DNA of 64,000 bases from Candidatus Hydrogenedentota bacterium (GTDB taxonomy: Bacteria > Hydrogenedentota > Hydrogenedentia > Hydrogenedentales > JAEUWI01), in NCBI GenBank assembly GCA_016182605.1, contig JACPGE010000107.1:1-64000 (forward strand). The letters are read 5' to 3'. Shown in pieces: positions 3,855 to 52,357 of this stretch. The notes below the pieces were generated by a model that saw nothing but the letters and a program-made list of their open reading frames with translations, was not told where the DNA came from and made no database searches. Position numbers and translations under genes: made by a program. Each line of letters opens with the position of its first letter. Position 1 is the stretch's first letter.

Positions 3855-5343
3855 CATAGTCGCCCTGATGGTAGTGAGAGTACTGGCGGTTGCCGCCACC
3901 GCCGCCGCGGCCCCGTCCACCGCGGCGTCCGCGGCTGGAATGCTGCGGACGATCATTGGACTGATTCTTCGGGCTGATCACCACACTGCGGTAGAGCGAA
4001 TCGCCCAGGCTGAAGGTGCGGATCTCTTCGTCGTTCTGCAGCGTGAGATGGATGATACGCCGCTCCTGCGGGGAGAGGGGCTTCAGCCGCATGTTGCGGC
4101 CCGAGTCCTTCGCGCGCTGGGCCATGACCAACGCCATGTCTTCCAGCGATGCGCGCCGGCGATCCACATAGCCTTCCACGTCGACCACCAGACGCTCGCT
4201 GTTTTCTGCCACATCGTTGCGCGAAATCATGCGGTTGATCAGATACTGCAGCGCGTTGAGATTGCGCCCCTTGCGGCCAATGAGGAGTGCGCCGTCTTCC
4301 GATGCAATGTTGAGCCGCGCCGTGCCGTCGTCGGCCCGGCAAAACTCCGCCGTCGCTTCCATCCCCATCTTCCCAATAATCGCTTCCAGCATCGTCGCCG
4401 CTTCTTTGCCCAGCGCTTCGTCTATGGGCGCGCATTCCTGCATCTCGTCACGCGGCTCCCGTGCCATCGCTTCATTCACCGTAACATCGGCGTCCGCGCC
4501 CTCGGCCAGTATGGATTCCGGCTCTTCCCATTCGGGCAATTCCACCGTGCTCGCTTCCACTTCCGGCACGCGCACCCGCTCAGGGCGGCGGTTGCGATCG
4601 CGGCCGGGCCCACGCCCGCCTTCGCGATTGCCTTCGCGGTTCTGCGCGCGTCCTCCCTCGCGATTTTGGCTGCGTCCGCCTTCACGGTTCGCATCGGCAT
4701 TCGCATCGCGGTTGGTATCGCGATTGGCATCCCGGTTTGCGTCCCGATTGGGGCCACGATTCGCATCGCGGTTTGCATCCCGGTTGGTGTCACGATTCGC
4801 ATCCCGGTTCGTGTCACGGCCCCGGCCACGGCCCCGGCCCTGATTGCGGTCCTGGCCTTGATTACGGTCTTGACCCTGATTGCGGTCCTGACCCTGCTGC
4901 CGGTTCTGTTCCCCGCCCCGGCCCCGATCCGGACTCGCATCGCGGTCGCGTTGTGGCGCCGCGGGCGCCGCCTGGCTGCGCTCCCGGTTGTCCGTGCCAC
5001 GAGGGCGTTCCCCTTCACGTCCACCGCCGCCTTCACTGCTTCGCGGGCGATCGCCGCCCCGGCCCCGATCCTGGCCACCCCGGCGGTTGCGGCCGCGGTC
5101 ACTGCGGCGGCTCGCTTCTCCTTCGTGTTCGAAGTCGTCCCGTTGCGGGCGCGACGGTGTGTCAGGCAGGTTTTCCACCACAACCTTCACACGCACCGGG
5201 CGCACGCCAAAGCCAAAAAGTCCCTTGCTCCCTTCATCGAGAATCTCGATCTTGTCCACTTCATACATCTCGAGGCCCAATTCATCCAGTGCTTTCTGGA
5301 TGGCCTCCTCGCGCGTACGAGCACTTGCTTCCACTGCTCTCAT
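3832..5343 (-). CDS. jag: Jag/KhpB RNA-binding protein with a very long RDN-rich linker
   Basis: 503 residues, about twice the usual length. Residues 1-57 form a Jag_N domain (EEAIQKALDELGLE, KGLFGFG). Residues about 62-258 are a low-complexity linker rich in Arg, Asp, Asn and Gly, including three QGQDRN units (about 150-167) and about ten tetrapeptides of the NRDA/NRDT type (about 177-219). A KH domain with a GRKGRNL loop and an R3H domain (RRIIH, the R-xxx-H motif) follow. KhpB binds RNA and influences cell elongation and wall synthesis in other bacteria. The start ATG has GGGAG upstream. It lies 74 bases after yidC and overlaps mnmE. The linker may confer extra RNA affinity or condensate formation; that is inference. 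Confidence 0.93.
   Translation of the reverse strand: MRAVEASARTREEAIQKALDELGLEMYEVDKIEILDEGSKGLFGFGVRPVRVKVVVENLPDTPSRPQRDDFEHEGEASRRSDRGRNRRGGQDRGRGGDRPRSSEGGGGREGERPRGTDNRERSQAAPAAPQRDRDASPDRGRGGEQNRQQGQDRNQGQDRNQGQDRNQGRGRGRGRDTNRDANRDTNRDANRDANRGPNRDANRDANRDTNRDANADANREGGRSQNREGGRAQNREGNREGGRGPGRDRNRRPERVRVPEVEASTVELPEWEEPESILAEGADADVTVNEAMAREPRDEMQECAPIDEALGKEAATMLEAIIGKMGMEATAEFCRADDGTARLNIASEDGALLIGRKGRNLNALQYLINRMISRNDVAENSERLVVDVEGYVDRRRASLEDMALVMAQRAKDSGRNMRLKPLSPQERRIIHLTLQNDEEIRTFSLGDSLYRSVVISPKNQSNDRPQHSSRGRRGGRGRGGGGGNRQYSHYHQGDYDAGAVSD
4687..4815 (-). repeat. 12-bp tandem repeats coding for the Jag linker
   Basis: About ten degenerate 12-bp units, each encoding a tetrapeptide of the type Asn-Arg-Asp-Ala/Thr, in frame inside jag. 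Neighbouring sequence (about 4816-4902) holds three 18-bp units encoding QGQDRN. Synonymous and Ala/Thr differences between units indicate expansion followed by drift. Copy number probably varies between strains. Confidence 0.8.
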
Positions 5344-35971: not shown

Positions 35972-36441
35972 ATGGCGCACCTCGGAAGCGCATGAGACTC
36001 GCAATCCATTAGACTAGTTTTATGACCAATTGGTATTATTTGAAAATTGGGACACTTCACACGATACAACGCGCCTGGAGATAGTCTGTATGAGAATCTG
36101 AACATTGCAGCAGCCTCTTTCGACAGCACATCTTAGTGCACAACTTCTTTTTGTACAATAGCTTATGATATAGTATTGTCTTCCCGTAGTCCCACCTCCG
36201 GAAGACACATCTAATTGACCTCCATAGAACTCACCGGTATCCAGGCACCGAAAAGTTCTTGACGAATTAGACCTTTTTGCGTATAGTGGTTTATTGTGGT
36301 TATGGTGCGGCGCGTGGCTGCCGGGCTGGGTTTTGCACGAGGAACGGCTGAGGGCTTTGGCTAGGCCCCCGCAGTGAATATTCCGTTTCGCAACTGGCTT
36401 CGGGTGACCCACGAAATGTACCGCCACAGGAGGACTGGGCT
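35972..36441. other. Leader region of the giant secreted protein gene
   Basis: 470 bases of lower GC. It contains a weak box (g, AATTGGTATTATTT at 36028-36041), a degenerate promoter-like pair TTGTAC/TATTGT (36151-36179) whose arms ACAATA/TATTGT form an inverted repeat, and a good promoter at 36259-36287. No gene is supported. Confidence 0.55.
36259..36287 (+). promoter_or_regulatory. Promoter of the giant secreted protein gene
   Basis: TTGACG (36259-36264), 17 bases, TATAGT (36282-36287). The predicted start lies about 150 bases before the ATG at 36442, which has AGGAGG 8 bases upstream. Confidence 0.65.
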
Positions 36442-51594: not shown

Positions 51595-51660
51595 CCACCC
51601 AAACTTCCCCCGCAGCCCACAAATTCCCCCCCAAGTTCCAGCAATTGACCCCGGGCCCAC
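51595..51660 (-). repeat. Minus-strand G-run array
   Basis: Read on the minus strand, runs of two to seven G recur about every 8-12 bases, separated by AATT/TTTGT-type bases. GAATTTGTGGG and TGGGTGGATTA closely match parts of the plus-strand array at 51799-51864, so the two arrays are inverted relative to each other. Confidence 0.55.
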
Positions 51661-51798
51661 CTCTTTTCTTGACAAGACAACCAGATTGTACATTTTTGTG
51701 CAGGTGGTAGTGTTTCCTTTGTGCGCATACCATATATTGTGGTCGATCTTCTAAGCCTCTGCCAGCAATGGAGAAAGAACGGTGGTTCTTGGTAGAAA

Positions 51799-51864
51799 TG
51801 GGTTGACTTTGGGGTGGATTGGTGGTAAATTGCGGGTAATTCAGGGGCAAATTTGTGGGATATC
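51799..51864 (+). repeat. 11-bp phased G-run array over the mraZ promoter, candidate MraZ sites
   Basis: Six consecutive 11-bp units: TGGGTTGACTT, TGGGGTGGATT, GGTGGTAAATT, GCGGGTAATTC, AGGGGCAAATT, TGTGGGATATC. They cover the -35, the spacer, the -10 and the start site of mraZ. MraZ is known to bind short direct repeats rich in GGG in its own promoter, so autoregulation is likely. Confidence 0.65.
51803..51831 (+). promoter_or_regulatory. mraZ/dcw promoter
   Basis: TTGACT (51803-51808), 17 bases, TAAATT (51826-51831), about 47 bases before the mraZ ATG. It lies wholly inside the phased G-run array. Confidence 0.65.
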
Positions 51865-51877
51865 GGAACCCTTAACC

Positions 51878-52357
51878 ATGTACTACGGCGAAACACAGAC
51901 CGCACTAGACGACAAAGGCCGTCTCAATGTGCCGATCCATTTTCGCAAGGTCATGGAAGACAATGATCACGAGACCTGGTTTCTCACCAGGGGCTTCGAC
52001 GGCGCCATTTTCCTGTTCAACCTCCAGAAATGGCAGTCTCTGGTGGATTCAGGGCAGGAATTCTCGCCGCTCGACCCCCGCATGCTGGATTTCCGGCGGC
52101 TTTTCCTTGGCAGTGTGGCCAAGGTGAAGCGCGACAAAGCCGGTCGCCTCGCCATCCCATCCTATTTGCGGGAATACGCCGGTATTGATCGGGATGCGGT
52201 GCTTTTGGGTGTGGAAGACCATCTGGAGCTCTGGAGCAAGACCAATTGGGTCGCCTTCCAGCAGCAACAAATGGCGCAATATAAAGCCATGGCCGGCGAT
52301 CTGTTCCGGTCAGGCAAGGTAGGCAACGAAGGAGACGCGCGGGATGCTAAGCATTGA
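51878..52357 (+). CDS. mraZ: Transcriptional regulator MraZ
   Basis: 159 residues from the ATG at 51878. It has two SpoVT-AbrB-like halves: YYGETQTALDDKGRLNVPIHF and KVKRDKAGRLAIPSYLREYAG, each with the DxxGR-I/VP signature. MraZ forms oligomeric rings, binds repeats in the dcw promoter and usually represses the cluster. It opens the dcw cluster here. The ribosome site is weak (GGAA). The frame upstream to 51782 is open but precedes the promoter. Confidence 0.96.
   Translation: MYYGETQTALDDKGRLNVPIHFRKVMEDNDHETWFLTRGFDGAIFLFNLQKWQSLVDSGQEFSPLDPRMLDFRRLFLGSVAKVKRDKAGRLAIPSYLREYAGIDRDAVLLGVEDHLELWSKTNWVAFQQQQMAQYKAMAGDLFRSGKVGNEGDARDAKH

Follow-up and report, generated by a model that had tools for sequence, protein, structure and literature searches.

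The mraZ operators of E. coli, Burkholderia cenocepacia, and Mollicutes consist of direct GTG-type repeats spaced at about 10 bp, located upstream of mraZ at its promoter (PMC7761207, PMC8475190). For example, in the E. coli operator three GTGGG boxes and one GGGGT follow each other in steps of 10 bp immediately downstream of the -10 element. NrdR operators of ribonucleotide reductase genes are composed of 16-bp palindromes that come in pairs, with a distance of three or four turns of the helix between them (PMC12051234, PMC9110341). NrdR proteins were reported to bind box pairs with spacers of 14-17 and 24-27 bp (PMC12051234), which correspond, with 16-bp boxes, to 30-33 and 40-43 bp from start to start. 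A single NrdR box has also been found to activate topA in P. aeruginosa (PMC4409342). How the supply of DNA precursors is coupled to bacterial division is an open question, and our literature search, in which texts naming both regulators were judged by title and abstract and subscription papers were mostly outside the scope, found no paper linking NrdR with MraZ or the dcw cluster.

We analysed a stretch of 64,000 nucleotides (the window) from a Candidatus Hydrogenedentota bacterium, the genome of which comprises 6.76 Mb in 130 contigs. Here, an MraZ-family gene (PF02381) stands at the head of the dcw cluster directly after an array of G-rich boxes on the plus strand (the plus array), and is followed by a STAS-domain gene and then by rsmH as the start of the cluster. 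The MraZ residues D11/R15 and D86/R90 are invariant among the relatives. The elements located upstream of mraZ are collected in Table 1; a search of this upstream region against Rfam found no family. Considered together, the region is probably a composite control region of the dcw cluster, in which predicted MraZ and NrdR operators are combined with a putative inverted auxiliary MraZ operator. Its main point is the NrdR connection, which was absent from an earlier note made on this DNA from its letters.

Table 1. Positions of mraZ and of the elements located upstream of it in the window.
Feature	Position	Strand	Remark
MraZ-box array, inverted and less regular, chain of 7 boxes, several weak	51600..51663	-	score 21.2, P ~0.005
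End of the minus-strand array aligning with the paired GTGGG-type boxes of the family; degenerate in the window	51649..51663	-	family alignment
Decayed partner position TTGTACATTTTTGTGC, not a called box	51686..51701	.	score -4.2
NrdR box ATACCATATATTGTGG, palindromic, between the arrays	51727..51742	.	score 18.1
Third element, TAAGCCTCTG-N6-ATGGAGAA-like	51752..51775	+	order consensus TAASYCCTTG-N6-AAGGAGAA
MraZ-box direct-repeat array, predicted mraZ operator	51789..51859	+	top chain in the window, kept in the order
Sigma70-like mraZ promoter TTGACT-17-TAAATT, TG before -10	51803-51831	+	inside the plus array
mraZ, first gene of the dcw cluster	51878..52357	+	PF02381 match, 90.2 bits

The boxes of the plus array start at 51789 (weak), 51800, 51811, 51822, 51832, 51844, and 51855, with steps of 11, 11, 11, 10, 12, and 11 bp. 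The repeated G-rich units that the earlier note had described over the mraZ promoter are real: the mean spacing is 11 bp over the boxes at 51800-51859, and the G-runs of the core (51795-51862) recur most strongly at 11.2 bp, with a power matched by none of 3000 dinucleotide shuffles. An MraZ-box model trained on the plus arrays of the relatives, which learned a AATTGTGGTAAA-like box, ranks this array as the best chain in the window (score 54.2, with two further weak upstream boxes counted in). Because the same model picks the E. coli mraZ operator (score 35.2), the plus array can be tied to the MraZ operators that have been studied (PMC7761207, PMC8475190). It has direct GTG-type repeats about one helix turn apart at the promoter, and the layout with the promoter inside the array is the same in relatives. 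We consider the plus array almost certainly an MraZ operator on these sequence features. The earlier note had also described more copies and a slightly longer period than in E. coli. The array does have more boxes, but the plus arrays across the order (Hydrogenedentota) usually contain 5-6 boxes at ~10.4 bp per box, so the array is ordinary for its order. Within the last 110 bp before mraZ, the order-wide distances from GTGG to GTGG have their peaks at 10 (39), 11 (14), 21 (31), and 31 bp (18), and the family alignment reveals a 2-bp insertion that lengthens the period in the plus array of the window. Elsewhere in the window, a promoter-like TTGACG-17-TATAGT followed by GTGGTTTATTGTGGTTATGG (36259-36305; MraZ-box score 20.7) lies in front of the gene for a protein of 1228 aa that has divergent InlB B-repeat domains; this site is possibly a second MraZ target, or a product of chance.

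The second array that had been noticed on the opposite strand also stood up to analysis. Its G-runs are found on the minus strand at 51658, 51652, 51632, 51618, 51611, and 51600, and the model trained on the plus arrays gives it a score of 21.2 (P ~0.005 against shuffles), the second highest of all chains in the window (128 strand-kb scanned). The presence of words common to both arrays was likewise confirmed, CCCACAAATTCCCCCC / GGGGCAAATTTGTGGG being 88% and AATCCACCCAAA / TTGGGGTGGATT 92% complementary. The score alone is not decisive because the unrelated site at 36286 reaches 20.7. This near tie, together with the lower regularity of the minus array (best G-run period 10.3, P ~0.03 by period alone), is what one would expect if only the plus array were functional in ordinary MraZ autoregulation and the minus-strand G-runs were chance GC-rich words. 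We regard this explanation as unlikely, though it is the strongest of the alternatives, and the related genomes argue against it. Four of the five family members have paired GTGGG-type minus-strand boxes, aligned with each other at about -180 to -205 of mraZ; in the window, the G-runs continue past the aligned part, down to 51600. Across the order, the commonest distance within minus-strand GTGG pairs in the region from -600 to -110 of mraZ is 10 bp (n=14 vs ~1.4 per other spacing). Pairs at 10-11 bp occur at 0.64/kb between -500 and -110 and are nearly absent further up (0.02/kb beyond -500; Fisher P ~7e-7). Minus-strand chains at P<=0.05 were obtained in 18/56 genomes vs 10/102 control stretches with both strands pooled (Fisher P = 0.0006). 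The comparison with related genomes that the earlier note had proposed thus revealed a type of array that is not unique to the genome of the window. The minus array is beyond chance and enriched in the order, with a distance that varies between genomes and only two boxes aligned within the family. We favour the reading that it would serve as an auxiliary inverted MraZ operator, and the balance of this evidence tips slightly towards its being bound by MraZ.

NrdR is a dATP/ATP-sensing regulator of ribonucleotide reductase. Between the two arrays of the window lies a 16-bp palindrome of the NrdR consensus. When the 320-bp upstream region was shuffled 2000 times, no shuffle reached its score, and its position matches that of the boxes in relatives. 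The box model was hand-written from the NrdR consensus after palindromes had been noticed upstream of the mraZ genes of relatives, without any fitting to those palindromes. Offsets measured from the best single box showed a clear peak at 41 bp and none at 31 bp; we therefore searched for pairs with free spacing (20-65 bp, pair score >=18). NrdR-box pairs were found in 44 of the 58 mraZ upstream regions of the order, and in 40 of these regions the start-to-start distance was 30-32 or 40-43 bp. The genomes are mostly metagenome assemblies related by descent, so that these and the other genome counts are not independent. The controls gave 0/290 for shuffles and 0/103 for neighbouring control stretches; the region upstream of nrdR, used as a positive control, gave 23/30. 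The E. coli mraZ upstream region has no NrdR-box pair. The partner position in Table 1 is listed since it lies 41 bp upstream of the box, the commonest spacing in relatives. With that second box decayed, the two-box arrangement at three or four helix turns, present in 40/58 genomes of the order, is lost in the window, and NrdR control may be weakened in this genome because one good box is left. About a quarter of the genomes have no NrdR pair upstream of mraZ despite having nrdR. Outside the order, NrdR-box pairs were also observed upstream of mraZ in two genomes, one of them labelled Planctomycetota (L063 and L153; 31 and 33 bp apart).

Most of the genomes themselves contain the presumed regulator. 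We matched nrdR in 63 of the 69 genomes searched; comparing nrdR presence with box presence was uninformative as a test because nrdR is nearly universal. In the genome of the window, the gene after nrdR encodes a divergent ribonucleotide reductase that is NRDD-like and carries an ATP cone (L089 2350-5300, G000:C35), and a PF02867 search of this genome found no class I/II ribonucleotide reductase large subunit. This nrdR has its own predicted operator of the NrdR type, in which two boxes at a distance of 31 bp, the second of them weak, lie over a promoter of the TTGACA type. NrdR-type boxes also occur upstream of thyX in this genome (L082 4173 and 4495, G000:C114). Close to a TTGACT hexamer located about 350 bp before flagellar export genes, two palindromes resembling NrdR boxes were observed (L087 ~4541-4585, G000:C2). 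The palindromes upstream of mraZ could instead belong to another regulator with an NrdR-like site, given that the NrdR assignment comes from sequence and that the two boxes of relatives are often of unequal strength. However, the consensus and both NrdR-type spacings, of three and four helix turns, match, and nrdR itself has like boxes upstream of it in these genomes, which makes another regulator improbable. An NrdR operator upstream of mraZ in this order is very probable in our estimate.

The third conserved element, which lies between the arrays and was likewise absent from the earlier note, is located at about -122 of mraZ in 20/58 relatives (<=3 mismatches), with a gap that is nearly always 6. 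Within three mismatches, it was found in none of 50 control stretches, and it was absent from the other loci examined. Its placement upstream of -35 is one where an activator could touch RNA polymerase. An RNA hairpin in this element would be no more stable than in shuffles (z = -0.15).

We also considered whether NrdR and MraZ might act as one switch, a reading that draws on coelicolor (PMC9110341). The upstream minus array would be laid beside the plus array in an antiparallel manner, such that boxes of opposite strands would share one direction and both arms could be gripped by a single MraZ oligomer; the division cluster would then be kept off when nucleotides are in surplus. Such an arrangement is consistent with the inverted orientation and with the order of the elements, since 18 of the 20 genomes having both have the minus array further upstream than the best NrdR box. 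The earlier note had suggested that MraZ might bridge both arrays; three members of the family of the window have them 117-119 bp apart, but no coherent helical phase between them was found across the order (R = 0.12). The co-occurrence of the minus array with NrdR boxes is only suggestive (P = 0.08). We give this coupled action little credence.

Two further explanations concern the minus array and the G-runs. The earlier note had proposed that MraZ might control a minus-strand transcript, in which case the minus array would be the operator of a divergent promoter for a small RNA or for the aldo/keto reductase gene that is indeed divergent from mraZ in the window. Yet no sigma70-like minus-strand promoter reached the threshold near the arrays (best in the window, 6/12 matches), and the upstream neighbour and its orientation differ among relatives, being tandem in some that have the minus array. 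This proposal is very improbable, and the inverted auxiliary operator is favoured over a minus-strand transcript because GTGG pairs occur order-wide without promoters and beside differing genes. Also very improbable is a role of the G-runs as G-quadruplexes: the minus strand from 51632 down to 51598 fits the canonical motif (G7-N7-G3-N4-G5-N6-G3) and a G-quadruplex has been reported in the mraZ promoter of S. aureus (PMC11796246), but many arrays of relatives are built of GTGGT or GTGGA boxes with two Gs only, and the conserved feature is GTGG every ~10.4 bp rather than runs of three Gs.

We propose that MraZ, produced from the first dcw gene, would bind the helically phased GTGG boxes running through its own promoter and repress it, with the upstream minus-strand boxes as an auxiliary inverted operator. 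With NrdR sites just upstream, we predict that both the MraZ level and the supply of deoxynucleotides would influence dcw transcription. The NrdR sites lie upstream of the mraZ promoter and not over it, in contrast to ordinary repression by NrdR, which speaks against the proposal. A single site, as left in the window, could work and its effect could go in either direction, given the activation of topA through one box in P. aeruginosa (PMC4409342). The conserved NrdR pairs upstream of mraZ hint that nucleotide supply helps to set division-gene expression. If this is true, the NrdR pair at the dcw head would provide a direct and testable link between supply and division in a whole order, and MraZ, the signal of which is poorly understood, would gain a partner regulator. 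The inverted MraZ array would add a second, less certain layer.

Compared with the described systems, the locus resembles the mraZ operators of E. coli, Burkholderia cenocepacia, and Mollicutes in having direct GTG-type repeats spaced at about 10 bp at the mraZ promoter. Unlike in E. coli, where the boxes lie only downstream of the -10 element, they are more numerous in the window and also fill the spacer between -35 and -10, and an inverted array, absent in E. coli, is added upstream. The 16-bp palindromes, paired at three or four helix turns in relatives, resemble the NrdR operators of ribonucleotide reductase genes. In contrast to those operators, they are located upstream of mraZ and the dcw cluster, above the promoter, and one box is decayed in the window. 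The window thus shares with topA of P. aeruginosa a single NrdR box at a gene other than ribonucleotide reductase, whereas the predicted target here is the dcw cluster.
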